Shown here: piece by piece, positions 6,594-29,552 of the stretch | How the letters are laid out: each line of letters opens with the position of its first letter | Position numbering within the stretch: position 1 is the stretch's first letter | Source of the DNA: Verrucomicrobiales bacterium | GTDB lineage: Bacteria; Verrucomicrobiota; Verrucomicrobiia; Verrucomicrobiales; DEV007 | Direction of reading: 5' to 3' | Assembly (NCBI GenBank): GCA_024641425.1 | Contig: JAHEDC010000005.1 | Span: forward strand, 1 to 37,209 | Length of the DNA: 37,209 bases | Notes under the pieces: generated by a model | Database searches by the model: none | The model's input: only the letters and a program-made list of their open reading frames with translations | Told to the model about the DNA's origin: nothing | Program-made: the position numbers and the translations under genes

Positions 6594-7757
6594 TCAGGCT
6601 CCTTCAGACTTCCGCAAGCTCCCCGGGGTGCGCCCCAATCGCGATTTCAGGACGTGGCCCATGTATTCCTGGTGGCGGAAACCGGAACGCTCGGCGATTT
6701 CGGCGAAGCTCAGCTCCGAGTTCTCGATGAGTCCGCGCGCGCGGCGGAGGCGGCGTTCGACGATGTAGTCGCGGATCGTCTGCCCGGTGGCGGCGAGGAA
6801 GCGCCGCTGGAAGAGAGTGCGGCTCAAGCCGGTGGCCGCCGCGATGACGGTGTTCGAGAGGTTTGTCGCGAGGTTCTCGTGGATGAAGTGGAGGCCTTCG
6901 GCGATCGCGGCATCCTCGATCGCACGGATGTCGGACGAGCGCCGTGCGACGATACCCGTGGGGGGAACGAAGATCGGAGCGCCCCGATGCTTCTTCCCCG
7001 CCATGAGGCCATCGAGTAGGCTTGCGGCTTCGAAGCCGACCCGGAAATGACCGGCCCGCACACTGGTCAGCGGCGGGGAGCTAATCTCGCAGAGCGGCAC
7101 ATCGTTGTCCACACTCGCCACCGCAATCCGCTCCGGCACCGCGATCCCTTCCTCGCGGCAGGCCTCCAGAAGCGAGAGCCCGCGCTGGTCGCTGCAGACC
7201 ATGACCGCGACCGGTTTGGGGAGGTCCCGCAGCCATTTACGCATCCGCTGCCGAACTCGCTCCGATCCCTCGTCCGGCCCGCGGGGAATTTCAAGGACGT
7301 GGAACGAGCGCCCGTCGGCGCAGTGCGCGCGGAAGGCATCGCGCCGACGTTCCGACCAGTTCTCGCCCGCGATTCCGTAGAAGGCGAAATCCTGGAAATC
7401 CCGGAGGCGGAAATGCTCCGCCACCTCGCGGGCGATCGCATCGTCATCGACATGCACGAGCGGGATTCCCGAATGGGCGATTACACCCAGCACGTCGATG
7501 ACCGGCGTGTCGCCGTTCCGGAGCACGGTCGCGCTCTCCGCGTCCTGCACCCGCGCGATGATGCCGTCTCCGCGCCAGTCCCGCATCCAGTCCGGAATGC
7601 GCTCGTGAAGGCTGCGCGGGACATGGAAGAGCTGCCACGAATCGCTCTGGTGGACGAAATGCGCGATACCGCGCAGGATCTCGCGTCCCGAACCGAGGGA
7701 TGTTTCGACGAGAAGGGCGACGCGCTTCCTCGTCGCGGTGGGGGAGACGCAGGGCAT
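6594..7757 (-). CDS. XylR-type transcriptional regulator (LacI-like sensor plus AraC helix-turn-helix)
   Basis: The 387-residue protein begins with a periplasmic-binding-protein-like effector domain (VALLVETSLGSGREILRGI, residues about 12-275). It contains the LacI/XylR-style segments VMVCSDQRGLSLLEACREEGIAVPE and VASVDND. It ends with a two-HTH AraC DNA-binding domain (about 285-387: LSNTVIAAATGLSRTLFQRRF, then SFAEIAERSGFRHQEYMGHVLK). This is the layout of E. coli XylR. It is transcribed divergently from galK and the galactofuranose-type importer, so it probably senses a galactose-related sugar and controls that operon. A small stem (TCCGG/CCGGA, 6576-6590) lies just past its stop, without a U-tract. 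Family is confident; ligand is inferred from position only. Confidence 0.9.
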   Translation of the reverse strand: MPCVSPTATRKRVALLVETSLGSGREILRGIAHFVHQSDSWQLFHVPRSLHERIPDWMRDWRGDGIIARVQDAESATVLRNGDTPVIDVLGVIAHSGIPLVHVDDDAIAREVAEHFRLRDFQDFAFYGIAGENWSERRRDAFRAHCADGRSFHVLEIPRGPDEGSERVRQRMRKWLRDLPKPVAVMVCSDQRGLSLLEACREEGIAVPERIAVASVDNDVPLCEISSPPLTSVRAGHFRVGFEAASLLDGLMAGKKHRGAPIFVPPTGIVARRSSDIRAIEDAAIAEGLHFIHENLATNLSNTVIAAATGLSRTLFQRRFLAATGQTIRDYIVERRLRRARGLIENSELSFAEIAERSGFRHQEYMGHVLKSRLGRTPGSLRKSEGA

Positions 7758-7977
7758 GTCCGATACCTACATCCCATTGCGGGTGTGCTCAAGAGTCATT
7801 CGACGGAGTGCATCCCGGTAGGTTCTATTAAAATGCGCAATAAGCGGTCCCGGCCAGAGGGCGGCTCCGATCCGATTTCTACGAAATTATATCGGAAATC
7901 TCCTAGAGATGCGCTTGATTCCAAACGGAAGAGCGGAAAAAGTGCTTCGAGATGCCGGCATTCGGCTCTCCCAGAAA
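7758..7977. promoter_or_regulatory. Divergent intergenic control region between regulator and galK, with candidate operators
   Basis: This is the AT-richest stretch nearby. It holds a perfect 5-bp inverted repeat ATTTC-TAC-GAAAT (7875-7887) inside a wider GATTTC...GAAATC pair (7874-7900), a plausible binding site for the divergent regulator. On the minus strand TATAAT (7886-7891) matches the -10 consensus, but no good -35 was found. On the plus strand TATTAAAAT (7826-7834) and TATATC (7888-7893) are weak -10 candidates. The galK start could also be the in-frame ATG at 7909, which would shorten this region. Confidence 0.4.
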
Positions 7978-9126
7978 ATGCCCACGAACGCTGCCCAACG
8001 CATCGCCCTCTTCGAGAGCGTCTACCATCGCCCCCCGCAAATCGCAGTGCGCGCGCCGGGGCGCATCAACCTCATCGGCGAGCACGTCGACTACGAGGAG
8101 GGGCTCGTTATGCCAGCTGCGATCGACCGGTATATTTTCGCCAATGCCGCTGTCATCGACGAGCCGGAGATCCGGCTCTGGAGCGCCACATGCACGCGCA
8201 CCCCGCTCCGTCTTCCCCTCGCCGATCTCGCGCCGCTGCATGGCACGGATTCGTGGGCGAACTACGTCGCGGGCGTCGTGGCGAAATACCGCGACGCCGG
8301 TGTTCCCGTGCGGGGCTTTGATGTCGCGTTTGACGCGACGCTTCCCCTTGGGGCCGGTCTGAGCAGCAGTGCCGCGCTGGAAGCGGCGACCGCACTTATC
8401 GTCGAGGCCGCGACTGGTTTCACGAAAACACCCCGCGAGCGCGCGCTCCTTTGCCAGGCTGCCGAACATGAATACGCGGGTGTTCCCTGCGGCATCATGG
8501 ATCAATTGGCCGTGGCCTCCGGAGTGAAGGGACACGCGCTCATGATCGATTGCCGCTCCCTCGAAGTGACGCCAAGTCCGCTGCCCGAAGGCATCGCCGT
8601 GGTCGTTGTCGACAGTCGCGTCAAGCACGCCCTCGCCGATGGCGAGTATGCGAAGCGCAAGGCGGACTGCGAGGCCGCCGTGCAGAGCTTGGGCGTCCAA
8701 CGCCTTCGCGATGCGAGCCTCGAGAACGTTCATGCGGCGCGCGACCGGCTCGGTGATCGCGTTTTCCGGCGCGCCCGGCACGTGGTGTCGGAAATCGGTC
8801 GCGTCCGGCGATTCGCGGAGGCCCTGCAAGGCGGAGATGTCGAGACGGTGGGCAAGCTCATGGCCAAGAGCCACACCTCGCTGCGAGACAATTACGAGGT
8901 CAGTTGCACCGAGTTGGACGCGTTGGTCGCGATCGCAAACAGTTTGGGCGTCATCGGCGCCCGCATGATGGGCGGCGGTTTCGGTGGCAGCACCGTGAAC
9001 TTGGTCCGCGAGGAAGAAGCCGCCTCGGTGGCGGAGGCGATCTGCGCGCGCTATCGGGAAACCTACGGTGCGGAAGTCGAGGCCTTCGTCGTCCATGCCG
9101 TGGACGGAGCGGCCCTCGAATCATGA
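7978..9126 (+). CDS. galK: Galactokinase
   Basis: Catalyses ATP-dependent phosphorylation of galactose to galactose-1-phosphate, the entry to the Leloir pathway. The GHMP kinase signatures are present: the galactokinase motif GRINLIGEHVDY near the N-terminus, the ATP-binding loop LGAGLSSSAALEAA, GIMDQLA with the catalytic Asp, and the C-terminal GGGFGGSTVNL. The ATG at 7978 gives 382 residues, the usual length for the family, and puts APGRINL at the expected place. An upstream in-frame ATG at 7909 would add 23 atypical residues. The last codons overlap ytfR by ATGA, so the two are translationally coupled. galT and galE are not in the window. The coupling implies that the neighbouring importer delivers galactose or a precursor of it. 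Confidence 0.93.
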   Translation: MPTNAAQRIALFESVYHRPPQIAVRAPGRINLIGEHVDYEEGLVMPAAIDRYIFANAAVIDEPEIRLWSATCTRTPLRLPLADLAPLHGTDSWANYVAGVVAKYRDAGVPVRGFDVAFDATLPLGAGLSSSAALEAATALIVEAATGFTKTPRERALLCQAAEHEYAGVPCGIMDQLAVASGVKGHALMIDCRSLEVTPSPLPEGIAVVVVDSRVKHALADGEYAKRKADCEAAVQSLGVQRLRDASLENVHAARDRLGDRVFRRARHVVSEIGRVRRFAEALQGGDVETVGKLMAKSHTSLRDNYEVSCTELDALVAIANSLGVIGARMMGGGFGGSTVNLVREEEAASVAEAICARYRETYGAEVEAFVVHAVDGAALES

Positions 9127-10631
9127 GCGACGTTCTGCTCCAGGCCTGCGGCATCGCGAAAGCCTTCCCTGGCGTCCGGGCGCTCGTGGGCGTCGACTTC
9201 ACGGTTCGGGCCGGAGAGATCCATGCCCTCATGGGCGAGAACGGCGCCGGAAAATCGACGCTCATCAAGGTGCTCACCGGGGTCTATCCGCGTGACGCCG
9301 GCACGGTCGTGCTCCTTGGAAAACCGATGAATCCCGGCTCGCCCCTCGATGCGGAACGCGCCGGAATCGCCACCGTCTATCAGGAGGTCAACCTCATTCC
9401 CGAACTCTCCGTCGCTGAAAACATCATGCTTGGCCGGCAGCCGAGGAAGGCCGGATTCCTCCAATGGAGATCGATCCGCCGCCACGCCGACGAGGCCCTC
9501 TCGCGCCTGGGCCTGAAGATCGATTCCTCCCGCCCGGTCTCTTCCTTTTCCATGGCCATCCAGCAGATGGTCGCCATCGCCCGCGCGCTCCACGTTGACG
9601 CGAAGCTCCTCGTCCTCGACGAACCGACCTCCAGCCTCGACGAACAGGAAGTGGCCGAGCTTTTCGTCATCATGCGCAAGCTCCGCGACGACGGACTCGG
9701 CATCGTCTTCGTCACCCATTTCCTCGACCAGGTCTATGCGGTCACCGACCGCATCACCGTTCTGCGCAACGGTGAACTGGTCGGTGAATTCGAGACCGCG
9801 CGCTTGCCCCGGATCGAACTCATTGCCCGCATGCTGGGGCGCGAGGTGTCGGAGGTTTCCAATGTCGGCGACACCATGGCCATGAGCCGCGACGAAGAAG
9901 CCAAAGACGAGGTTTTCCTGGTGGCCGAGGGCATCGGGCGCGCGGGGATCGGGCCGCTTGATCTTGAAATCCGACGCGGCGAAGTCGTCGGTCTTGCCGG
10001 TTTGTTAGGCTCCGGTCGCACCGAGACCGCGCGCCTGCTTTTCGGGGCCGACCGACGCACTTCGGGCAATATCAGCATCGCGGGCAAGGACGCGCCGCTC
10101 TCCCATCCGGCGGAAGCCATCGCGGCCGGTATCGGCTTCTGTTCCGAAGACCGGAAGCTTGAGGGCATCGTTCCCACGCTCTCGGTGCGCGAGAACATGA
10201 TCCTGGCCATGCAGGCCGGCCAAGGCGCGCTGCGCCAGCTTCCCCGCGCGAAGCAGAAGGAGATCGCCGACCACTACATTTCGGCCCTGAAGATCAAGAC
10301 ACCTTCGCCCGAGACCCCGATCCAGAACCTCTCCGGCGGCAACCAGCAGAAAGTCCTTCTCGCCCGCTGGCTCTGCCTCCAGCCGCAGCTCATCATTCTC
10401 GACGAGCCGACGCGCGGCATCGATGTCGGGGCCAAGGTCGAGATCGAGAAGCTCGTCGATTCCCTGCGTCGGGAGGGCATGGCCATCCTATTTATTTCCT
10501 CCGAGCTGGAGGAAGTGGCCCGCGCCTGTGGTCGCGTCGCCATCATGCGTGACCTGAAGAAGGTCGGCGAACTCGCCGGCACGCAGGTCGAGGAACACCA
10601 GATCATGAAGCTCATCGCCGCCCATGACTGA
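9123..10631 (+). CDS. ytfR: Sugar ABC importer ATPase, galactofuranose type
   Basis: A 502-residue tandem ABC ATPase of the RbsA/MglA/YtfR class. The first half has a full Walker A (GENGAGKST, about 38-46), signature region and Walker B (LLVLDEPTSSLDEQE). The second half has the degenerate P-loop typical of this class (GLLGSGRTETARLLFG), a good signature LSGGNQQKVLLARWL (from 403) and LIILDEPTRGID. Both halves energise uptake through the two downstream permeases. It starts in the ATGA overlap with galK and overlaps the first permease by 8 bp. Assignment to YtfR rather than RbsA or MglA rests on the two-permease, one-binding-protein layout and the strong resemblance of the partner proteins to YtfT, YjfF and YtfQ. 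Confidence 0.88.
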   Translation: MSDVLLQACGIAKAFPGVRALVGVDFTVRAGEIHALMGENGAGKSTLIKVLTGVYPRDAGTVVLLGKPMNPGSPLDAERAGIATVYQEVNLIPELSVAENIMLGRQPRKAGFLQWRSIRRHADEALSRLGLKIDSSRPVSSFSMAIQQMVAIARALHVDAKLLVLDEPTSSLDEQEVAELFVIMRKLRDDGLGIVFVTHFLDQVYAVTDRITVLRNGELVGEFETARLPRIELIARMLGREVSEVSNVGDTMAMSRDEEAKDEVFLVAEGIGRAGIGPLDLEIRRGEVVGLAGLLGSGRTETARLLFGADRRTSGNISIAGKDAPLSHPAEAIAAGIGFCSEDRKLEGIVPTLSVRENMILAMQAGQGALRQLPRAKQKEIADHYISALKIKTPSPETPIQNLSGGNQQKVLLARWLCLQPQLIILDEPTRGIDVGAKVEIEKLVDSLRREGMAILFISSELEEVARACGRVAIMRDLKKVGELAGTQVEEHQIMKLIAAHD

Positions 10632-11646
10632 CAAACCCACCCTGCTCCGAAATATCCTCGGCAGCCGCCTCCTCTGGCCGGCGTGTGGCTTGTTCTTGCT
10701 TCTCGCCTTCAACCTCGTCAACGACCCCGCCTTTTTCGAGATCGGCCTTCGCGATGGGAAACTCTACGGCGACATCGTTTCCATCCTCCTTCAGGCCGCG
10801 AAGATCATTCCCGTTGCCATCGGCATGACCCTCGTCATCGCCACCGGGGGCGTCGATCTCTCCGTCGGCTCGGTCATGGCCATCGCGGGCACCCTCGCCG
10901 CGCTGCTCGTGGCGACCGGAACACCGCTCATCCTGGCGATTCTCGCCGCCATCGCGCTGGCGGCCGTCGTCGGCGCGGCCACCGGCGTCCTCGTCGCGCA
11001 CGTCCGTATCCAGCCCATCGTGGCCACGCTCATCTTCATGGTGCTCGGGCGCGGGATCGCGATGGATCTCACGAAGGGAATGGGCAAACCGATCACCGAT
11101 CCGGCCTTCCTGTATCTCGGCGGCGGCTACATCCTCGGCGTGCCCTTCGCCGTCGTGCTCGTTCTCGTCTTCGGCCTCGTCGTCGGTCTCTTCCTCCGGA
11201 AAACCGCGACCGGTCTTTTCATCTCGGCGGTCGGCGCCAATGCCGCCGCGAGTCGGCTCTGCGGCATCCGGGAGTCCCGGATCAAGGTCGGCATCTACGC
11301 TTTCAGCGGTGTCTGTGCCGCCCTCGCGGGACTCATCGCCGCTGCCCGTGTCGAAAGCGCCGAGCCCGCGCGCATGGGCGAACTGGCCGAACTCGACGCC
11401 ATCTTCGCCGTCGTCGTCGGCGGCACCGCGCTGACCGGAGGGCGCTTCAGCATCCTCGGCTCGCTCGTCGGAGCCATCCTCATCCAGACCCTGGTCTGGA
11501 CGATGCAGAAACTCGGCGTTCCCTCCGACGTCACGCCGGTGCCGAAAGCTCTCGTCATCATCGTCGTCTGCCTCCTCCAGTCGCCGCGCTTCCGCGCGCA
11601 GATCACCGCTCCCTTCAAGGCGCGCAAACGTCCCGCGACCGCCTGA
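10624..11646 (+). CDS. ytfT: Sugar ABC importer permease 1, YtfT-like
   Basis: A 340-residue polytopic inner-membrane protein of the branched-chain/ribose permease family. It closely matches remembered E. coli YtfT in LRDGKLYG, AIGMTLVIATGGVDLSVG, VMAIAG, RIQPIVATLI, GRGIA, LRKTATGLFISAVGANAAA, LELDAI-like LAELDAIFAVVVGG and GGRFSILGSLVGAILIQ. YtfT and YjfF together form the membrane channel for galactofuranose in E. coli. The ATG lies inside the last codons of ytfR (8-bp overlap), and a 12-bp gap separates it from the second permease. Membrane segments are obvious throughout. Orthology is judged from memory, not by alignment software. Confidence 0.9.
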   Translation: MTDKPTLLRNILGSRLLWPACGLFLLLAFNLVNDPAFFEIGLRDGKLYGDIVSILLQAAKIIPVAIGMTLVIATGGVDLSVGSVMAIAGTLAALLVATGTPLILAILAAIALAAVVGAATGVLVAHVRIQPIVATLIFMVLGRGIAMDLTKGMGKPITDPAFLYLGGGYILGVPFAVVLVLVFGLVVGLFLRKTATGLFISAVGANAAASRLCGIRESRIKVGIYAFSGVCAALAGLIAAARVESAEPARMGELAELDAIFAVVVGGTALTGGRFSILGSLVGAILIQTLVWTMQKLGVPSDVTPVPKALVIIVVCLLQSPRFRAQITAPFKARKRPATA

Positions 11647-11658
11647 TTTTCCCCCGCG

Positions 11659-12621
11659 ATGCTCCAGCGCAAGAACATCCCGCTCCTCGCCACTTTCGCC
11701 GTCCTCGCCCTGCTGCTGGTCGCGGCCTCGGTGTTGTTCGACCGCTTCCTCACCCCGCTGAACTTCGCGAACATCCTGCGCGGGAACGCCGCCCTCGGCG
11801 TCATCGCGGTCGGCATGACCTTCGTCATCCTTTCCGGTGGCATCGACCTTTCGGTGGGCACCGTCATGGGCTTCTCCACCATCCTCCTCGCCCGCCTCCT
11901 CGCCGTCGAGGGGCTTTCACCCCTCGTCGCGGTTCCCATGGTGCTCTCCGTCGGCTGTGGCTTCGGAGCCCTGCTCGGCGGCATCATCCAGGTTTACAAG
12001 CTCCCGCCTTTCCTCGTCACCTTGTCCGGCATGTTCCTCGCCAAAGGTCTCGCCTTCGTCGTCCTGCCGCAGTCGCAGGACATCGATCACGCTGGCTTCC
12101 GCGCCTTCGCCCAGTTCAAGCTCAAGCTCTTCGGCAATGCCCCGATAACCTCGGCCACGCTCGTTTTCCTCGCTCTCGTGCTGATCGCCCTCTACCTCGC
12201 GCACTGCACCCGCTTCGGGCGCAACGTTTACGCGCTCGGTGGTTCCGAGTCGTCCGCCACTCTCATGGGCCTGCCGGTCGGGAAAACGAAAGTCACCGTC
12301 TATGCCCTCAGCGGTTTCTGCGCCGCGCTCGGCGGCGTCCTCTGGGTCATGAACTCGACCTCCGGCAACCCCGCCATCGGCCTCGGCACCGAACTCGACG
12401 CCATCGCCTGCGTCGTCATCGGTGGCACCCTCCTCACCGGCGGCGTCGGTCAGATCATCGGAACCTTCGCCGGAGTCCTTGTTTTCGGTACCATCGAGTC
12501 CATGATTCGGTTCAAGGGACTCGAATCGTCCCGCACCCGCATCGCCCTCGGCCTCCTCCTCCTCGCCTTCATCGTCCTCCAGAAAATCGTCGTCCGAAGC
12601 GCGGACCGGAAACTTTCCTAA
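11659..12621 (+). CDS. yjfF: Sugar ABC importer permease 2, YjfF-like
   Basis: A 320-residue polytopic membrane protein. It shares long stretches with remembered E. coli YjfF: ALGVIAVGMTFVILSGGIDL, SVGTVMGFS, PPFLVTLSGMFLAKG, FLAH-like LYLAHCTRFGRNVYALGG, ATLMGLPVGKT, GTELDAIACVVIGGTLLTGG and TRIALGLLLLAFIVLQ. It pairs with the preceding permease. The binding-protein gene follows after 39 bp. The presence of two distinct permease genes for one ATPase is what separates this system from ribose, xylose or galactoside (mgl) importers, which use one permease. Confidence 0.9.
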   Translation: MLQRKNIPLLATFAVLALLLVAASVLFDRFLTPLNFANILRGNAALGVIAVGMTFVILSGGIDLSVGTVMGFSTILLARLLAVEGLSPLVAVPMVLSVGCGFGALLGGIIQVYKLPPFLVTLSGMFLAKGLAFVVLPQSQDIDHAGFRAFAQFKLKLFGNAPITSATLVFLALVLIALYLAHCTRFGRNVYALGGSESSATLMGLPVGKTKVTVYALSGFCAALGGVLWVMNSTSGNPAIGLGTELDAIACVVIGGTLLTGGVGQIIGTFAGVLVFGTIESMIRFKGLESSRTRIALGLLLLAFIVLQKIVVRSADRKLS

Positions 12622-12660
12622 TCATCCTAGCAAATCCAGAAACTCCATCCCTCGCATCCC

Positions 12661-13653
12661 ATGAAAACGAATCCCACCAGCATGATCCGGCGCAGCGCCC
12701 TCGTCCTCCTCGCCTCCGCGACGGCGGCGCTCCTCACCAATTGCAACAAAGGCGACAAGGCTGGCGGAGGCAGCGGCGACACGATGCGCGTCGGTTTCGC
12801 CCAGGCCGGCGCCGAGAGCGCCTGGCGCCGCGCTGAGACCGAGTCCGTGAAGGCCGAGGCCGAGAAGCGGGGTATCGACCTCCGCTTCACCGACGCCCAA
12901 GGCAAGCAGGACAAACAAATCGCGGCCGTGCGCGACTACATCGCCCAGGGACTCGACGGCATCATCCTCGCGCCCATCGTCGAAACCGGCTGGGACGAGG
13001 TGCTCGGCGAAGCCAGGGACGCGGGCATTCCCGTGGTCCTCGTCGACCGCGGCGTCAGCGTGAAGGACGAATCGCTTTACGCAACCCTCATCGCCTCCGA
13101 CTTCGTTTCCGAAGGGAAGATGGCCGGCGAGTGGCTCGTGAAGAAGTCGGGCGGCAGCGCCAAGATCATCGAACTCGAAGGCACTCCCGGCGCCGCTCCC
13201 GCCATCGACCGCAAGAAGGGATTCGACGCCGTTATAGCGGGCGAATCGGGCATGGAGATCCTCGCCTCCCAGAGCGGCGACTTCAACATCGAGAAGGGCA
13301 AGGAAGTGATGGAGGCCCTCCTCGCCCAGCACGCCGACGCCGTCACGGCCGTCTACGCGCACAATGACGACATGGCCCTCGGAGCCATCCAGGCCCTCGA
13401 AGCGGCCGGCAAGAAGCCCGGCACCGAGGTGACCGTCATTTCCATCGACGGGGGCAAGGCCGCCCTCGGCGCCCTCGTCGAGGGCAAACTCAACTGCGTC
13501 GTGGAATGCCTCCCCCTCCTCGGCCCGAATGCCTTCGACGCCCTGGAGAAAATCAAGGCCGGCGAGAAACTGGAGAAATGGCAGAAAGTCGACGACCAGC
13601 TCTTCGACGCCGAGAACACGACGAAGGATTTCGTCGACAAGCGGCCTTATTGA
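12661..13653 (+). CDS. ytfQ: Galactofuranose-type sugar-binding lipoprotein, YtfQ-like
   Basis: A 330-residue periplasmic-binding-protein-fold protein. The N-terminus (MKTNPTSMIRRSALVLLAS ... LLTNC) ends in a lipobox-like LTNC, so it is probably a lipoprotein, unlike the soluble E. coli protein. The mature part matches remembered YtfQ: VGFAQAGAESAWRRAET, AEAEKRGIDL, AVRDYIAQGLDGIILAPIV, TGWDEVL, VKDESLY, GEWLVKK, AIDRKKGFD, SQSGDFNIEKGKEVME, VYAHNDDMALGAIQA, SIDGGK and AFDALEK. In E. coli YtfQ binds galactofuranose and galactopyranose. As the last gene of the galK-ytfR-ytfT-yjfF-ytfQ operon it fixes the likely substrate. The ligand residues were not checked individually. Confidence 0.9.
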   Translation: MKTNPTSMIRRSALVLLASATAALLTNCNKGDKAGGGSGDTMRVGFAQAGAESAWRRAETESVKAEAEKRGIDLRFTDAQGKQDKQIAAVRDYIAQGLDGIILAPIVETGWDEVLGEARDAGIPVVLVDRGVSVKDESLYATLIASDFVSEGKMAGEWLVKKSGGSAKIIELEGTPGAAPAIDRKKGFDAVIAGESGMEILASQSGDFNIEKGKEVMEALLAQHADAVTAVYAHNDDMALGAIQALEAAGKKPGTEVTVISIDGGKAALGALVEGKLNCVVECLPLLGPNAFDALEKIKAGEKLEKWQKVDDQLFDAENTTKDFVDKRPY

Positions 13654-15593: not shown

Positions 15594-15605
15594 ACCTTGC
15601 CCTCC

Positions 15606-17201
15606 ATGCCCCGCCATTTCACCGCCGTCGATTGGATCGTCCTGGTCGCCTATTTCGTGGCCACCCTTGGCATCGGACTCTTCTTTTCGCGGAAGAGCCA
15701 GTCCACTGAGGGCTTTACGGCCGCGAATCGTTCGCTTCCGGGCTGGGTCTGCGGGCTCTCGATCTTCGCGACCTTCCTGAGCAGCATCAGCTTCCTCGCC
15801 CTGCCGGGGAAGAGCTTCGCCACCAACTGGACGCCTTTCGCCTTCTCGCTCTCGCTACCGCTGGCGACCTGGATCGCGGTGCGCTGGTTTTTGCCGTATT
15901 ACCGTCGCAGTGGCGAGGTGTCGGCGTACGCGCATCTGGAAAAGCGTTTTGGCCCGTGGGCGCGGCTTTACGCGAGTACCTTCTACCTGCTCACCCAATT
16001 CGCCCGCGCCGGAATGGTGCTTTACCTCATGGCGCTGCCGGTTTCGATCATCCTTGGCGTACCCATCGGAGGCGTGCTTGTGGCGACGGGACTCATCGTC
16101 ACCGCGTATGCTTTCATTGGCGGCATCATCGCCGTGATCTGGACGGATGCTCTCCAGGCGATCGTGCTCATCGCGGGAGCGGTGATCTGCCTTTTCGTCC
16201 TTCTCCTCGGCTTGCCGGACGGTCCGGCGGGTCTCTTTCACACCGCCGCCGAGCGCGGGAAATTCTCGCTCGGCGACATGAACAGCACCGCCATTGGAAA
16301 GCAGACGTTCTGGGTCGTCCTGTTGAATGGCCTCTTCATCAATCTCCAGAACTTCGGTATCGACCAGAACTACGTCCAGCGCTACATCGCCTCATCCTCC
16401 GAGCGCGAGGCGCGGCGCAGTGTGTGGCTCGGCGGGCTCCTCTACGTTCCGGTGAGCGCTGTTTTTTTCCTCATCGGGACGGGCCTTTTCGCCTACTATG
16501 ACAGCCGCCCCGACGACCTCGCGGAAGTCCGCACGACCGCCGCCGCTCAGCAGATCCTCCGTGAAGGCATCCCCGCCTCGTCGCCTGAGTTCGAGGCCAC
16601 CGTCGCCGCCCGCGCCGACACTCTTGAAGACGCCAAGGTCGCCGATAGCGTCTTCCCGCATTTCATCGGCAAGCATCTTCCCGCAGGTCTCACCGGGCTC
16701 ATCATCGCCGCCGTCCTCGCGGCGGGCATGAGCACCGTCTCCACCTCGCTCAATTCCTCCGCCACCGTCCTCCATTCCGATTTCTTCCTCCGCTTCCTCC
16801 AGCCCGGGGCCAGCGACGCGACCTCGCTGACCTTCCTTCGCCTCGCCACCCTCGCCGTCGGCATTGTCGGCACCGGCATCTCCTTTCTCCTCCTCAATGT
16901 CTCCAGCGCCCTCGACGCGTGGTGGACGCTCTCCAGTGTCTTCTCCGGCGGGATTCTCGGACTCTTCCTTCTCGGCATGATCAGTCAGGCGAAGAATGCC
17001 AGCGCCCTTATCGCCGTCATCGCGGGGCTGCTGGTCATCGCGTGGATGGTGCTCTCAAGTCTTCCTCTCTGGCCAGCGGCCCTGGCCGATTTCGCGAGCC
17101 CTTTCCACGGCTTCCTCGTCATTGTCGTCGGCACTTTGACAATCCTCTTCACCGGTCTCACGCTCACTCTCTTTCTGGGAAAGAAAACCACCACGCCATG
17201 A
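15606..17201 (+). CDS. Sodium:solute symporter (SSS family), probable sugar-acid transporter
   Basis: A 531-residue inner-membrane protein with about 13 hydrophobic segments and SSS-family features: an N-terminal DWIVLVAYFVATLGIGLFF helix, ATFLSSISFLALPGKSF, AFIGGIIAVIWTDALQAIVL, the hallmark NFGIDQNYVQRYIASSSERE, and LIIAAVLAAGMSTVSTSLNS. I start at the ATG at 15606; a TTG 9 bp upstream is also possible. The family uses a sodium gradient to import sugars, sialic acids or amino acids. Its stop overlaps the aldolase start (ATGA), so the imported compound is very likely the lyase substrate. Sialic acid is a reasonable but unproven candidate. Confidence 0.9.
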   Translation: MPRHFTAVDWIVLVAYFVATLGIGLFFSRKSQSTEGFTAANRSLPGWVCGLSIFATFLSSISFLALPGKSFATNWTPFAFSLSLPLATWIAVRWFLPYYRRSGEVSAYAHLEKRFGPWARLYASTFYLLTQFARAGMVLYLMALPVSIILGVPIGGVLVATGLIVTAYAFIGGIIAVIWTDALQAIVLIAGAVICLFVLLLGLPDGPAGLFHTAAERGKFSLGDMNSTAIGKQTFWVVLLNGLFINLQNFGIDQNYVQRYIASSSEREARRSVWLGGLLYVPVSAVFFLIGTGLFAYYDSRPDDLAEVRTTAAAQQILREGIPASSPEFEATVAARADTLEDAKVADSVFPHFIGKHLPAGLTGLIIAAVLAAGMSTVSTSLNSSATVLHSDFFLRFLQPGASDATSLTFLRLATLAVGIVGTGISFLLLNVSSALDAWWTLSSVFSGGILGLFLLGMISQAKNASALIAVIAGLLVIAWMVLSSLPLWPAALADFASPFHGFLVIVVGTLTILFTGLTLTLFLGKKTTTP

Positions 17202-18109
17202 GTTCCCCTTCCCTTCCGCACATCGTCGGCAGTGTTCCGCCCATTCCGACCCCGCTTCTCGACAACAGCCGTTGCGACGCCGAGGCCTTCGCGCGGATCG
17301 CCGCTCACCTCGAGACAGGGGGCATCGACGCCGCGTTCGTCCTTGGCTCGACGGGCGAACTCGCGTCCCTCAGCCACACCTGCCGACGCGAAGCCATCGA
17401 GGCCTCCGCATCCGCCTTTACGGTTCCGCTTCTCGTCGGCATCGGGGACAACTGCCTGGAGGAAAGCCTCGCCCTCGCGGACGCCGCCGCCAATGCAGGT
17501 GCGACCGCCGTCGTTCTCAACGCGCCCTCGTATTTCGAAATCAGTGCTCGGGAAATGCGGGCCTACCTGGACCGGATCCTGCCCGTCCTCCCGCTCCCGG
17601 TTTTCCTCTACAACATGCCCTGGTTGACCGGTCACCGCTTCGACCGCGAAACCATCGCGCATGCCATCCAGTTCCCGAATCTCATCGGCTTCAAGGATTC
17701 CTCCGGCGATCTCGATTACCTGCGCCTGCTCGTCGAGGAAGCCGCCGTCCGTCCGGAATTGACCGTCCTCACCGGGAGCGAATTCCAATACCTCGAAGCG
17801 CTCCGCCTCGGGGCGCACGGCGTTGTGGGTGGGGGCGCGAACATGTACCCGGCGCTCTTCCAGCAACTACGCGCTGCGCATCATGCCGGCGAAAGCGCAA
17901 CCGCCGCCGCCCTCCAGAGGCAGATCTCGGAACTCGGGAACAGCATCTTCGGTCTGACCGGAAATCCGTCGTCCGTCTTCCCCTGCATCAAGGGCGGACT
18001 CGCCGCCCTCGGTCTCTGCTCGCCGTGCATGGCTCCGCCGCTTGAGTCCTGCTCGCCCGAAGTCGTCGCAGGCATCGCCGCCCTCATCCGGCAGCCCGTC
18101 CCCGCATGA
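17198..18109 (+). CDS. DHDPS/N-acetylneuraminate-lyase family aldolase
   Basis: A 303-residue TIM-barrel class I aldolase. Diagnostic motifs are GSTGE (50-54, alpha-keto-acid carboxylate binding), the catalytic tyrosine Y138 in FLYNMPWLTG, and the Schiff-base lysine K166 in GFKDSSGD. The family includes dihydrodipicolinate synthase, N-acetylneuraminate lyase and 2-keto-3-deoxy-sugar-acid aldolases. Coupling to a sugar-type symporter and a sialidase-like protein argues for a catabolic lyase releasing pyruvate rather than lysine biosynthesis. The start was chosen because it lies in the ATGA overlap and begins MSSPSLPHIVGSVPPIPTP, the normal family N-terminus. nanE, nanK and nagA/B are absent from the window, so a sialic acid role is only inferred. 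Confidence 0.88.
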   Translation: MSSPSLPHIVGSVPPIPTPLLDNSRCDAEAFARIAAHLETGGIDAAFVLGSTGELASLSHTCRREAIEASASAFTVPLLVGIGDNCLEESLALADAAANAGATAVVLNAPSYFEISAREMRAYLDRILPVLPLPVFLYNMPWLTGHRFDRETIAHAIQFPNLIGFKDSSGDLDYLRLLVEEAAVRPELTVLTGSEFQYLEALRLGAHGVVGGGANMYPALFQQLRAAHHAGESATAAALQRQISELGNSIFGLTGNPSSVFPCIKGGLAALGLCSPCMAPPLESCSPEVVAGIAALIRQPVPA

Positions 18110-21165: not shown

Positions 21166-23604
21166 ATGAAATCCGCCCTCTCCACCCTTCTTCTCGCCGC
21201 CCTCCTGTCCTCGGCTTCCGCCCAGAAAGGTGTTTACAAATCCAGCGTCGATGCCCACTGGCTCACGGACAACACCCGTTTCTGGTACCGCAACGACCTT
21301 GCCCATGGCACCCGCGAGTTCGTCCTCGTTGACGCGGAGAAAGGAACCCGCCAACCCGCCTTCGATCACGAGAAGCTCGCGAAAGCCTTCGATGCCGATC
21401 CCGCCAGGCTCCCACTCGAGAACCTCGATTTCGACCTCGGAGAAAACGCCCTCTACTTCCGCGCCAAAGGCAAGGCCTGGCGTTGTGACCTCGGAACCTA
21501 CGGCCTGACCGAGGCGCCGCCCCGCGACCCGAAGCCCGGCGATGCCCTCACCGGCTACCACCCCCGCGATCTCCCGCGCGGCGGAGACCCGGGTGGTGGC
21601 GAAACCGCCCTCGTTTTCGAAAACAAGACCGACGGCGTGGTCGAGCTGTTCTGGCGGAACGGCGGCGAGCGCACGAGTTACGGGAAGATCCTGCCGGGCG
21701 AATCGCGGAACCAGCACACCTTCGCGGGCCACCTCTGGGAAATCATCGATGCCAGGGGCGAGACTCTCGTTGCTTTCCGTGGCGAGCGCCAACCGCGCAA
21801 CGCGATCATCACCGGCAAGGTCAATCCCCGCGGACGCAACCGGGACGGCAGACCTTCGCGCCCGAACATTGAAAGCGCATGGCGCGTCTCGGCGCGCAAT
21901 CACAATCTCTTCGTCAGGAAGGCCGACGGCGGAGACGAATTCCAGCTCAGCCACGACGGCGTGGAGGGCAACGGTTACGAACACTTCGAACTTTCCCCCG
22001 ACGGCACGACCCTCGTCGCCTTCCGCGTCGAACCCGGTGAGAATCTTCCGGTCTACCGCATCGAATCGTCGCCGAAAGAAGGCGGTCGCGTGAAACTCCA
22101 GAGCAATCCCTATCCTCTGCCCGGCGACAAGTTCGCCGCCTATGAGCTGAACCTCTTCGATCTCGCCTCGCGGAAACAGACCAAGCCCGCTGTCGAGCGT
22201 GTCGATTTCGGTCGCCCCCGCATCCGCTGGACGCAGGACGGCAAGTATTTCACTTACGAGAAGACCGATCGAGGCCACCAGCGCTACCGGCTTATCCGCA
22301 TCGATCCGACATCCGGCGAGGCCGTGATTGTCATCGATGATCGGAGCGAAACCTTCGTTTTCACCTACGCGAGCAGCTTTGGTGACACCACGCGCATTCT
22401 CGATGCCACGGACGAAGTCCTCTACGCCTCCGAGCAAGACGGCTGGCGCCACCTCTATCTCTACGATATCGCGAAGGGCGGTCTTGTGAGCCAAATCACC
22501 AAAGGCGAATGGGTCGTGCGCGGCATTGACGAGATCGACGAGGAGAAGCGGCAAATCTGGTTCCACGCGAGCGGCATCATTCCCGGTCAGGATCCCTACC
22601 TGGTCCATTTCGGACGCGTCAACTTCGACGGCAGCGGTCTCGTCTTCCTCACCGAAGGCGACGGAAACCACGAGATCACGTATTCGCCGGACAAACGTTA
22701 TCTTCTCGATACCTACTCGCGCGTGGATCGCGAACCCACCACCGAGCTCCGCCGCGTCGCCGATGGCAAGCTCGTCTGCGCCCTCGAAACCGCCGACATC
22801 ACCGAACTCTCCTCCACCGGTTGGGAGGCCCCCGAGGTCTTCGTCGCGAAAGGCCGCGATGGAACGACCGACGTCTGGGGCATCGTCTGCCGCCCGAAGG
22901 ATTTCGATCCCTCGAAGAAATACCCTGTCCTCGAGCACATCTACGCCGGGCCCCACGATTCCTTCGTCCCGAAATCCTTCAGCGCCTCGCGCCGCTTCTC
23001 CGAGATGACCGACCTCGGCTTCGTCGTCGCGAAGATGGACGGCATGGGCACAGCCAACCGCTCGAAGGCCTTCCACGACGTCTGCTGGCAGAACCTCAAG
23101 GACGCCGGCTTTCCCGACCGCATCCTCTGGCACCAGGCGGTCGCGGCGAAGTATCCCTGGTACGACATTTCCCGCGTCGGCATCTACGGCGGTTCGGCCG
23201 GCGGCCAAAGCTCGACAGGCGCTCTCCTCTTTTATCCTGACTTCTACAAGGTCGCCGTCTCCTCCTGCGGCTGCCACGACAACCGGATGGACAAGGCCTC
23301 GTGGAACGAGCAGTGGATGGGCTATCCCGTCGGCCCCCACTACGCCGCCTCCTCGAACATCGACCACGCCGCCAATCTCCGCGGCCATCTCATGCTCATC
23401 GTCGGAGAACTCGACAACAATGTCCCGCCCGAATCCACCTACCGCCTCGCCGATGCCCTCATCAAGGCTGGCAAGGACTTCGAGCTCGTCGTCCTCCCCG
23501 GCCAGGGCCATGGCGACGGCGGCTCCTACGGCGAACGCAAGCGCCAGGACTTCTTCCGCAAGCACCTCATGGGGATCGATCCGCCGGATCGGAACGGCGG
23601 GTGA
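21166..23604 (+). CDS. S9 (dipeptidyl-peptidase IV-like) prolyl peptidase with inserted VHL beta domain
   Basis: An 812-residue secreted protein (signal peptide [19 protein letters not shown]). The N-terminal part is a DPP IV-type beta-propeller and the C-terminal 250 residues are an alpha/beta hydrolase with the serine triad: S677 in GGSAGGQ, D750 in GELDNN, H782 in GQGHGDG. Between about residues 147 and 222 lies a VHL-like beta domain: [44 protein letters not shown]163, Y172, T185, H189 and W191 align with human VHL W88, Y98, S111, H115 and W117, the hydroxyproline pocket. DPP IV enzymes remove Xaa-Pro dipeptides from peptides in the periplasm or outside the cell. I start at the ATG at 21166 because the upstream frame enters the hairpin region and lacks a signal peptide. 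Confidence 0.9.
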
Positions 23605-26221: not shown

Positions 26222-27205
26222 ATGAACGACTCTTCCCTCTCTCTCCCCGACGGCGCCCGCTTTCCTGCCATCGGGCTCGGCACCTGGAAGATTCCCGATG
26301 CGTTGACGCCGGGGATCGTGCGGGATTCCGTGGAGATCGGGTACCGGCACTTTGATTGCGCCTGTGATTACGGGAACGAGTCGGCGGTGGGGAAGGGTTT
26401 GCGGGCGGCGCTGCAAGAGGGGCTGTGCGGGCGGGAGGATTTGTGGGTGACTTCGAAATTGTGGAACACCTACCACGAGCCGCGGCATGTCCGGGCGGCC
26501 TGCGAGCGGTCGCTGCACGATCTCGGGTTGGACGAACTCGACCTCTACCTCGTCCATTTCCCGATCGCGCTGGCCTACGTGCCCTTCGAGGAACGCTATC
26601 CGCCCGGGTGGTTGCATGATCCGACGGCGGCGGCCCCGGCGATGAAGCCGGTCGACGTTTCCTACGCCGAGACGTGGGGGGCAATGGAGGAATTGCAGCG
26701 CGCGGGACTCGTGAAGCGGATCGGAGTCTGCAACCTGACCATCTCCTTGCTCCGAGAAGTGCTCGTGACCTGCGAGATCCGGCCGGCCGTCCATCAGGTC
26801 GAGATGCATCCCTACCTGACGCAACAGCGGCTGTTGCGCTTTTGCCAGACCGAGGACATTGCCGTGACCGCCTTCTCGCCCTTCGGCGCGGGGTCGTACG
26901 TGCCGCTCGGGATGGCGGAGAGCGGGGAATCGGTGCTGGTCGATCCGGTGGTGACGGAGATCGCCGAGACGCATTCTCGAAAGGCCGCGCAAGTGGTGCT
27001 GCGCTGGGCGGTGCAGCGGGGGACGGTGGCGATCCCGAAATCGCAGAGCCCGGAGCACTTGCGCGAGAACCTCGATGTGTTTTCGTTCTCCCTGAGCGAC
27101 GCCGAGATGGCGGCCCTCGACGGGCTCGACCGCCACCAGCGCTACAACGATCCCGGTGCCTTCGGCGAGGCCGCCTTCAATACCTTCTACCCCATCTTCG
27201 ACTGA
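26222..27205 (+). CDS. Aldo/keto reductase (xylose/aldose-reductase type)
   Basis: A 327-residue cytoplasmic NAD(P)H-dependent TIM-barrel reductase. The catalytic tetrad is D45, Y50, K79 and H112 (HFDCACDYGNE, TSKLWNTYHEPRH, LDLYLVHFPIALAYVPFEER). The nicotinamide and phosphate-binding segments VGVCNL-type RIGVCNLTI, HQVEMHPYLTQ and VAIPKSQSPEH are present. The long loop after LVHFP and the end GEAAFNTFYPIFD resemble xylose reductase / mannose-6-phosphate reductase branches more than short bacterial AKR5 enzymes. The ATG at 26222 is the first after the ATPase palindrome. The next gene begins one base after its stop, so the two are co-transcribed although no metabolic link is obvious. Confidence 0.88.
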   Translation: MNDSSLSLPDGARFPAIGLGTWKIPDALTPGIVRDSVEIGYRHFDCACDYGNESAVGKGLRAALQEGLCGREDLWVTSKLWNTYHEPRHVRAACERSLHDLGLDELDLYLVHFPIALAYVPFEERYPPGWLHDPTAAAPAMKPVDVSYAETWGAMEELQRAGLVKRIGVCNLTISLLREVLVTCEIRPAVHQVEMHPYLTQQRLLRFCQTEDIAVTAFSPFGAGSYVPLGMAESGESVLVDPVVTEIAETHSRKAAQVVLRWAVQRGTVAIPKSQSPEHLRENLDVFSFSLSDAEMAALDGLDRHQRYNDPGAFGEAAFNTFYPIFD

Positions 27206-27206
27206 C

Positions 27207-29552
27207 GTGGACTTCCCCCGCCCGCTTTCCTTCGCGCTGCTCGCCTTCCTGTCTGTGACGGCGGGGGCGGAAGAACGGCTCTTCGTGGAGATCGTCGAGA
27301 ACTACTGCGCCGATTGCCACGACGCGGATTCGAGCAAGGGCGATATCGATTTCCTCTCGATCCTCGGCGAGCCGGTCAGCGCGCACGCGGCGGTGTGGGA
27401 GAAGGCGGTGCGGCAGCTCGACGCCCGCCAGATGCCGCCGATCGGGAAGGATCGACCGGACGGGGCGGCTTATGGCGAGGTCGTTTCGCTGCTGGAGAAA
27501 GCACTCGATGCGGCGGCCGCCGAGCACCCGAATCCGGGTCGCACGGACACCCTGCGACGCCTGAACCGGACGGAATACCGGAACGCGATCCGCGACCTGC
27601 TCGCGCTCGACATCGATACGACCGCGCTGCTTCCCGCCGACGAGTCGAGCCACGGTTTCGATAATGTAACGGTGGGCGAATTGTCGCCGACCTTGCTCGA
27701 CCGCTACATCACGGCGGCGCAGAAGATCAGCCGGCTCGCGGTGGGAAGTCCGTCGCGGGTTCCGGCCGGGCAAACGATCCGCGTGCGGCCCGACATCACG
27801 CAGGAAGGGCATGTCGAGGGGCTCCCGTTGGGAACGCGCGGTGGCACGTTGATCCCGCAGAACTTTCCCCGCGATGGCGACTACGAGATCGTGATCCGCC
27901 TCGCCCGTGACCGGAACGAGCAGATCGAGGGCTTGCGCGGGAAGCACACGCTGGAAGTCCTGCTCGATGGAAAACCCGTGGCCGATTTCGCCGTGCAGCC
28001 GCCGCAGAACCGGGCCGACCAGACGAAGGTCGACGCGCACCTGAAGACGCGGATTCCCGTCAAGGCAGGCCCGCACGCGCTGGGAGTGACGTTCCGGAGA
28101 AATGGCGCACCCTTGGAGGAAAACCTGCGTCAGCCCTACAGCGCCCATTTCAACACCCACCGCCATCCGCGCCTCGCGCCGGCGATCTACGAGGTCTCGA
28201 TCACCGGGCCCTACGATTCACCGGGAGCCGGCGAATCCCCGAGTCGAAAGCGGATTTTCACCTCGGCCTTGGAGGACGAAAACGCGAGGGCCTCCGAGAT
28301 CCTCGGCGCGCTCGCGCGCCGCGCTTTCCGCCGACCGGTCGCGCCCGGCGATCTGGAAGGCCCGCTGGGTTTCTACCGCACGGCGCGGGAGGCGGGCGAG
28401 GATTTCGAGGCGGGGATCGAGGCCGCGCTCACCGCCATCCTGGTCAGTCGCGAGTTTCTTTTCCGCGTCGAAAAAGATCCCTCCGACCTCGCGCCGGGAA
28501 CCGTGTATCCGATTACCGACCTCGAACTCGCCTCGCGGCTCTCCTTCTTCCTCTGGAGCAGTATCCCCGACGAGGAACTCCTCGCCGTGGCCGAACGCGG
28601 CGAACTCCGTGATCCTGACATGCTCGCACAACAGACGCGCCGCCTGCTCGCCGATCCGCGCGCGACCTCGCTCGTAACGAACTTCGCCGACCAGTGGCTC
28701 TATCTGCGCAACCTCGATTCCATCACCCCGGACGGACGGCTTTTTCCCGACTTCGACGACAACCTCCGGCAGGCCTTCCGACGCGAGACCGAGATGCTCT
28801 TCGAGACCGTGCTCCGCGAGGATCGCAGCGTGCTCGACCTCCTGCGCGCCGACTTCACCTTCCTCAACGAACGGCTCGCCGAGCACTACGGCATTCCGCA
28901 CATTTACGGCGACCGCTTCCGGAAGGTCGCGCTCGAACCCGAAAGCCGGCGCGGCGGGATCCTCCGGCACGGCAGCATTCTCACCGTGACCTCGTACGCG
29001 ACCCGCACCTCGCCGGTCATCCGCGGACATTGGATCCTGAAGAACCTGCTCGGCACCCCGCCTCCGCCTCCGCCGCCCGATGTCCCCGCGCTCGAGGACA
29101 ATACCGTCTCGGCCAGCCTTCCGATGCGCGAGCGCCTCGCCGAGCACCGCGCCAACCCGGCCTGCGCGAGCTGTCACGATGTGATGGATCCCGTCGGCTT
29201 TTCGCTGGAGCACTTCGACGCCGTGGGCCGCTGGCGCACGATGGAGGAAGGCCGCCCGGTCGATGCCAGCGGCGGTCTGCCCGACGGCAGTGAATTTGCC
29301 GGCGTGGAGGGCTTGGAACAGGGCCTCCTCGCGCGCCCGGAGATTTTCGTCCGCACCCTGAGCGAGAAGCTTCTCACCTTCGCTCTCGGCCGGGGTGTCG
29401 AGACCTACGACGCGCCTGCCATCCGCGGGGTCCTGCGAGGGGCGAAGTCGGATGACTACCGTTTTTCCGCGCTCATCCTCGGGATCGTGCAAAGCCCCGC
29501 CTTTACCCTGCGGACGCGTGCGGACGTTGACGCCGAAGGGAAATCCCATTGA
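27207..29552 (+). CDS. DUF1592-family c-type heme protein (DUF1587/1595/1592/1588/1585)
   Basis: A 781-residue exported protein starting at GTG 27207, one base after the reductase stop; that start puts the signal peptide (DFPRPLSFALLAFLSVTAGA) first. Domain order: N-terminal heme-c domain with CADCH (C34, C37, H38), DUF1587 (RRLNRTEYRNAIRDLLALD), a carbohydrate-binding-like middle region (about 200-340), DUF1595, DUF1592 (YPITDLELASRLSFFLWSS), DUF1588 with a second heme-type motif CASCHDVMDPVGFSLEHFD (C653, C656, H657), and DUF1585 at the end. Such proteins are expanded in Planctomycetes and Verrucomicrobia. They usually pair with a DUF1552 protein and are linked to periplasmic redox and polysaccharide use. 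No DUF1552 gene is present here. Function remains unproven. Confidence 0.9.
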   Translation: MDFPRPLSFALLAFLSVTAGAEERLFVEIVENYCADCHDADSSKGDIDFLSILGEPVSAHAAVWEKAVRQLDARQMPPIGKDRPDGAAYGEVVSLLEKALDAAAAEHPNPGRTDTLRRLNRTEYRNAIRDLLALDIDTTALLPADESSHGFDNVTVGELSPTLLDRYITAAQKISRLAVGSPSRVPAGQTIRVRPDITQEGHVEGLPLGTRGGTLIPQNFPRDGDYEIVIRLARDRNEQIEGLRGKHTLEVLLDGKPVADFAVQPPQNRADQTKVDAHLKTRIPVKAGPHALGVTFRRNGAPLEENLRQPYSAHFNTHRHPRLAPAIYEVSITGPYDSPGAGESPSRKRIFTSALEDENARASEILGALARRAFRRPVAPGDLEGPLGFYRTAREAGEDFEAGIEAALTAILVSREFLFRVEKDPSDLAPGTVYPITDLELASRLSFFLWSSIPDEELLAVAERGELRDPDMLAQQTRRLLADPRATSLVTNFADQWLYLRNLDSITPDGRLFPDFDDNLRQAFRRETEMLFETVLREDRSVLDLLRADFTFLNERLAEHYGIPHIYGDRFRKVALEPESRRGGILRHGSILTVTSYATRTSPVIRGHWILKNLLGTPPPPPPPDVPALEDNTVSASLPMRERLAEHRANPACASCHDVMDPVGFSLEHFDAVGRWRTMEEGRPVDASGGLPDGSEFAGVEGLEQGLLARPEIFVRTLSEKLLTFALGRGVETYDAPAIRGVLRGAKSDDYRFSALILGIVQSPAFTLRTRADVDAEGKSH

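Follow-up and report, generated by a model that had tools for sequence, protein, structure and literature searches.

Hydroxyproline (Hyp) has its textbook reader in the von Hippel-Lindau protein (VHL), on which oxygen sensing and many PROTAC drugs are based. What, then, would a VHL domain do inside a bacterial peptidase? This question is raised by an S9-family peptidase gene in a 37,209-nucleotide stretch of DNA (hereafter the window) from a Verrucomicrobiales bacterium (contig JAHEDC010000005.1). An earlier note on this DNA had proposed that the domain may recognize Hyp and bring Pro/Hyp-rich substrates to a proline-specific enzyme of the dipeptidyl peptidase IV (DPP IV) type. In our analysis, the Hyp-reader part of this proposal is supported by a VHL-like predicted fold, by conservation of the pocket and by Hyp-gene neighbourhoods in relatives, whereas its premise of a proline-specific DPP IV is not supported. 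We give a probability of about 0.58 to the reading that the gene encodes a secreted S9 peptidase for Hyp-containing peptides with a VHL-type Hyp reader.

A VHL beta domain within an S9-family peptidase

The features of the gene are listed in Table 1. The earlier note had assigned residues 147-222 to a VHL beta domain, and both these limits and its residue numbers proved exact. Pfam detects VHL (PF01847) over residues 148-199 with 26.3 bits, compared with a cut-off of 21. When the domain region alone was searched against PDB by phmmer, only VHL chains were retrieved (E about 1e-3), and a profile built from 73 homologues again found VHL only (E 3e-12). The structure prediction that the note had suggested as a check was also run. 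The AlphaFold2 model of the domain has a pLDDT of 79.6, with a core over 90, and Foldseek recognizes it as a VHL-type beta sandwich: among the 50 best matches listed there are VHL complexes only (best E 1.6e-6), many of which superpose at an rmsd of 1.4-2.0.

Table 1. Features of the S9-family peptidase gene (positions in the window; percentages are weighted values among homologues)
Feature	Position	Strand	Residues	Evidence or remark
S9-family peptidase	21166..23604	+	812 aa	ATG start
N-terminal stretch (20 letters)				Sec signal peptide-like, by inspection
VHL beta domain insert	21604..21831	+	147-222	Pfam, PDB profile matches, AlphaFold2, Foldseek
W163 (VHL Trp88)	21652..21654	+	163	W 100%
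Y172 (VHL Tyr98)	21679..21681	+	172	Y 94%, F 2%
T185 (VHL Ser111)	21718..21720	+	185	T 90%, S 10%
H189 (VHL His115)	21730..21732	+	189	H 98%
W191 (VHL Trp117)	21736..21738	+	191	W 98%
DPPIV_N beta-propeller	21892..22728	+	243-521	PF00930, E 3.6e-35
Peptidase_S9 catalytic domain	22987..23565	+	608-800	PF00326, E 1.3e-45
Catalytic triad	23194..23511	+	S677, D750, H782	S677 (GGSAGG) 23194-23196, D750 23413-23415, H782 23509-23511
17-residue motif	23266..23316	+	701-717	At the place of the DPP IV proline S1 pocket

With the beta domain of human VHL (PF01847; 1lm8, 1lqb, 4ajy), the bacterial domain shares the fold, the spacing of W88, Y98, S111, H115 and W117, the GHxW motif, and N78 and G114; it differs in being only about 25% identical and in sitting inside a peptidase. 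The VHL alpha domain, which binds Elongin C, had no match in the window peptidase by Pfam, PDB search or the full model, and the chain continues from the beta domain into the propeller. Thus, contact with Elongin is not expected. The full-length model is confident (pLDDT 88.3, pTM 0.87) and shows the VHL strands between propeller strands. Counting strands on this model would place the insert after the second propeller blade. Since the substrate-binding insertion of PmDAP IV lies between blades 1 and 2 (PMC5807507), the VHL insert would be at least near a known substrate-binding face.

Other VHL-like proteins were also encountered. L065 and L066 (ORFs of 127 and 132 aa in G017 and G008) are small stand-alone VHL proteins that keep W, Y, T, H and W and have the motif LTHPW rather than GHxW. 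A 1663-aa ORF (L067, in G025) contains about five VHL-like repeats, mostly without the pocket residues, and in L068 a VHL domain that lacks the His stands at the C-terminus.

Conservation of the VHL hydroxyproline-site residues

In VHL, the Hyp site consists of Trp88, Tyr98, His110, Ser111, His115 and Trp117; the Hyp hydroxyl is hydrogen-bonded by Ser111 and His115, and its carbonyl by Tyr98 (PMC9528729). The match of five of these residues (W88, Y98, S111, H115 and W117) to W, Y, T, H and W in the window, as claimed by the note, was confirmed, and we examined their conservation in S9 homologues. These were gathered from the order with the whole gene as query, from the phylum with PF01847, and from named genomes. 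The VHL domain was present in 126 of the 186 collected proteins. Carriers were defined by a profile seeded on GHxW sequences, which raised the question of selection bias; this profile nonetheless detected pocket-broken copies, three of them in the order, and proteins classed as VHL-less do have a real gap of about 75 residues at the insertion site. All five residues were intact in 121 of the 126 carriers; they do not vary freely, and the VHL match is therefore not a product of chance. Two of the conditions that the note had named as refuting its proposal, a predicted fold unlike VHL and free variation of the five residues, thus turned out in its favour. Among the 81 columns of the weighted alignment of carriers, the Hyp-site columns hold conservation ranks 1, 3, 4, 6 and 7, and N78 and G114 account for the remaining two of the top seven. 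Five random columns would reach the same ranking with a P of about 8e-7.

The surroundings of the site give a different picture. In VHL, the flanks of bound peptides or inhibitors use Asn67, Arg69, Phe91, Tyr112, Pro99, Ile109 and Arg107 (PMC9528729). Position 112 is aromatic in 97-98% of the VHL-bearing homologues, and most contacts to the HIF residues flanking Hyp are lost: Arg69 is replaced by Gly (89%), Pro99 by Gly (83%) and Ile109 by Gln (84%), and Phe91 is variable. A Hyp cage that is kept while most flank contacts are not is the pattern that should be expected, as judged from the alignment, of a Hyp reader for other peptides.

It is also conceivable, though unlikely, that the peptidase acts on Hyp/Pro peptides while its VHL domain serves structure or protein contacts (as a dimer contact or a brace of the propeller), with conserved residues that hold the fold. 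Conservation for the fold only should not pick out the Hyp contacts, including the polar pair T185-H189, over the hydrophobic core. Moreover, the repeats of L067, which belong to a non-peptidase, are still recognized although W88, Y98 and H115 are lost, so the fold seemingly does not depend on these residues.

Gene neighbourhoods and distribution of the VHL domain

Within the order, and in genomes having a Pro_racemase-family (PF05544) gene, 37 of 55 VHL-bearing S9 genes lie within 5 kb of such a gene on the same strand, compared with 0 of 24 VHL-less ones. These 37 carriers fall into four families, with eight or more genera represented, and show differing gene orders. The pocket is complete in all 37 adjacent copies, and none of the three pocket-broken copies of the order is epimerase-adjacent. 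Fisher's test of VHL presence against adjacency gives 5e-9, a value that overstates the evidence because the carriers are related and provide just three phylogenetically independent pairs with and without VHL; a sign test on three pairs has no power.

The Pro_racemase-family protein of these operons scores 370-434 bits as a 4-hydroxyproline epimerase, just below the equivalog cut-offs of 442-450, and 175-218 bits as a proline racemase. Its nearest PDB entry is 2azp, it is close to 4j9w/4j9x, and both Cys motifs are intact; 4J9X is the complex of HypE with Hyp (PMC4364671). Further genes of the operons encode an AraC-type regulator, a DHDPS-family protein, aminopeptidase P, a POT di/tripeptide symporter and a DAO-family D-amino-acid dehydrogenase, and an aldehyde dehydrogenase (ALDH) gene is found in the L225 operon; the gene sets vary. 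The known partners of 4HypE in trans-4-hydroxyproline catabolic operons are DAAO, DHDPS and ALDH (PMC4113996). The same enzyme families thus flank the VHL peptidase gene of the relatives, whose version adds a VHL-bearing, probably secreted S9 peptidase, an AraC-type regulator and sometimes the POT symporter and aminopeptidase P. A collagen-utilization cluster of Colwellia likewise combines extracellular proteolysis, uptake, a Hyp dipeptidase and the Hyp pathway in one locus, but it uses an M9 collagenase, and no VHL domain is mentioned in the available text of that report (PMC7883544). The adjacency ties the peptidase family to the use of Hyp independently of how the VHL domain is read.

This operon link is lineage-bound: in the phylum's other orders, none of 10 genes with VHL has a Hyp gene nearby. 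Few of those in the named genomes are adjacent; L154 and L178 lie beside epimerase and DAO genes, and L152, L153, L167 and L171 have a neighbouring DHDPS gene whose product is 63-66% identical to the operon type. Two VHL-less genes of the named genomes, L137 and L209, also adjoin epimerase genes, and the operon therefore supports the peptidase as much as the VHL domain, a point in favour of a merely structural insert.

A protein of about 290 aa with no Pfam or NCBIfam match occurs in the Hyp operon (L222:11211-12086 and L227:7417-8280). S9 genes of other lineages, VHL-bearing or not, also have it nearby (L135, L140, L141, L143, L155, L167, L185 and L195), which marks it as an as yet unnamed partner of the peptidase family.

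The VHL peptidase gene of the window itself is not beside Hyp genes (epimerase, DAO). Two of its neighbours, an SSF symporter (15597-17201) and a DHDPS-family protein (16919-18109), were considered as a Hyp operon and rejected because the latter is just 25% identical to the deaminase-like protein of the operons. The genome of the window does carry Hyp epimerase and DAO genes at two other places, one of them with DHDPS and ALDH. Production of Hyp by a PF13640 prolyl hydroxylase of the host was also dismissed, as the genome has no PF13640 match.

Lectin-like sites often contain aromatic cages with polar partners. The pocket might accordingly bind a hydroxylated ligand other than Hyp, for instance a sugar or glycan, through its aromatic residues and the Ser/Thr-His site. 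The altered surroundings of the Hyp site relative to human VHL would suit this idea, as would a BNR-repeat (sialidase-like) protein among the neighbours in the window. We regard it as distinctly improbable: in relatives, the genes around it in the operon belong to the Hyp pathway and are not sugar genes, and it is through this very Ser/Thr-His pair that VHL hydrogen-bonds the hydroxyl of Hyp (PMC9528729).

The VHL domain has been gained or lost repeatedly. At the insertion site, VHL-less homologues have a median of 42 residues and carriers 117, a difference of about 75, and presence and absence switch at least eight times on supported branches of the tree. The closest relatives of the window enzyme are VHL-less (62-68% identical, and up to 68% in the catalytic part), which again fits a structural module. 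On the other side, the domain occurs at two different positions. In an Armatimonadetes protein (L175), it occupies the C-terminus (residues 795-868 of an 869-aa S9 protein) with all five residues intact. This is a separate fusion, so that one peptidase family joined VHL in two ways. Verrucomicrobia-like VHL peptidases were also seen in metagenome bins titled Klebsiella pneumoniae/Proteobacteria (L147 and L171), names that are probably wrong.

The catalytic domain and a proposed role in feeding on hydroxyproline-rich proteins

Could the enzyme simply be an ordinary proline-specific DPP IV with a decorative insert? It has DPPIV_N and Peptidase_S9 domains, and in the PDB it is most closely related to prolyl tripeptidyl peptidase and DPP IV. 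Like the S9 DPP IV and prolyl tripeptidyl aminopeptidase structures (2d5l, 2ecf and 5yp1), it combines a propeller with an alpha/beta hydrolase, a Ser-Asp-His triad and an oxyanion-hole Tyr; the 186 homologues show no variation at S677, D750 and H782 or at the oxyanion residue Tyr593. In PmDAP IV, the proline is held by Val639, Trp642, Tyr645 and Tyr649, and the substrate N-terminus by Glu208-Glu209 (PMC5807507). The window enzyme has C703, N706, D709 and W713 at the four proline-pocket positions, with Val, Trp and Tyr thus giving way to Cys, Asn and Asp (CHDNRxD). It also has GGSAGG where DPP IV has GWSYGG. In an alignment to 5yp1 and 2ecf, the double-Glu motif is absent, as there is no counterpart of the 5yp1 helix between the GNG and the SPDG turn. 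These differences are near-invariant in the 186 homologues. By these tests, the protein is a DPPIV_N-type S9 enzyme and not a DPP IV, the "prolyl" premise of the earlier note is not supported, and an ordinary DPP IV is highly improbable. It may be speculated that the polar S1 pocket could suit a hydroxylated residue. The catalytic motifs are identical in VHL-bearing and VHL-less enzymes, which is also in keeping with a structural role of the insert.

The motif that replaces the DPP IV proline pocket, CGCHDNRxDKxxWNEQW, is near-invariant with or without VHL, and the S9 group with motifs of this type occurs across many phyla.

Taking the Hyp-reader reading as the best explanation, the following course may be proposed. 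The peptidase would be exported to the periplasm or outside the cell; a signal-like N-terminus is found by a crude rule in 111 of the 126 VHL-bearing homologues. The VHL insert would bind 4-hydroxyproline of the substrate through an aromatic cage, with a presumed geometry like that of human VHL, and the Ser/Thr-His hydrogen-bond pair. In this way it may keep Hyp-rich chains (collagen, or algal and plant hydroxyproline-rich glycoproteins) at the peptidase, with putative cleavage sites in Hyp-containing peptides. Short product peptides would then be imported and split, for which some operons offer the POT symporter and aminopeptidase P, and free Hyp would pass through the epimerase, D-Hyp dehydrogenase, deaminase and semialdehyde dehydrogenase. 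The VHL peptidase thus probably helps bacteria to feed on hydroxyproline-rich proteins.

We found no description of VHL domains in peptidases, or of bacterial Hyp readers, in the open-licence literature. VHL is not mentioned in the main text of a survey of prokaryotic prolyl oligopeptidases (PMC4522959). Bacterial VHL domains are already present in Pfam, and one printed example, EMK97_00595 of Litorilituus sediminis, is a hypothetical protein whose annotation includes a VHL beta domain and which its authors considered a possible tumour suppressor; the available text of that article draws no link to a peptidase or to Hyp metabolism (PMC9002001). The system described here is a combination of known parts that is new and testable. 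Bacterial VHL domains that keep the pocket, and that belong to peptidases encoded next to genes of Hyp breakdown, make an ancestral or parallel function open to direct test. A tentative and rather doubtful extension would be that VHL-fold Hyp reading serves nutrient scavenging in bacteria, where one secreted peptidase family recruited it at least twice, and that the VHL-HIF oxygen sensor of animals uses a domain whose Hyp pocket pre-existed for feeding on Hyp-rich protein. In addition, the peptidase is a candidate enzyme for degrading collagen and hydroxyproline-rich glycoproteins, and its VHL domain may provide small Hyp-binding modules for biotechnology.

Some further genes of the window were noted. 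A galactokinase-like GHMP kinase is followed by a galactofuranose-type ABC transporter with an ATPase, two permeases and a YtfQ-like binding protein (7909-13653), and a XylR-like regulator lies nearby (6594-7757). Positions 27156-29552 encode a planctomycete/verrucomicrobial PSD-type protein (DUF1592/1588/1585/1587/1595) with a cytochrome c match.
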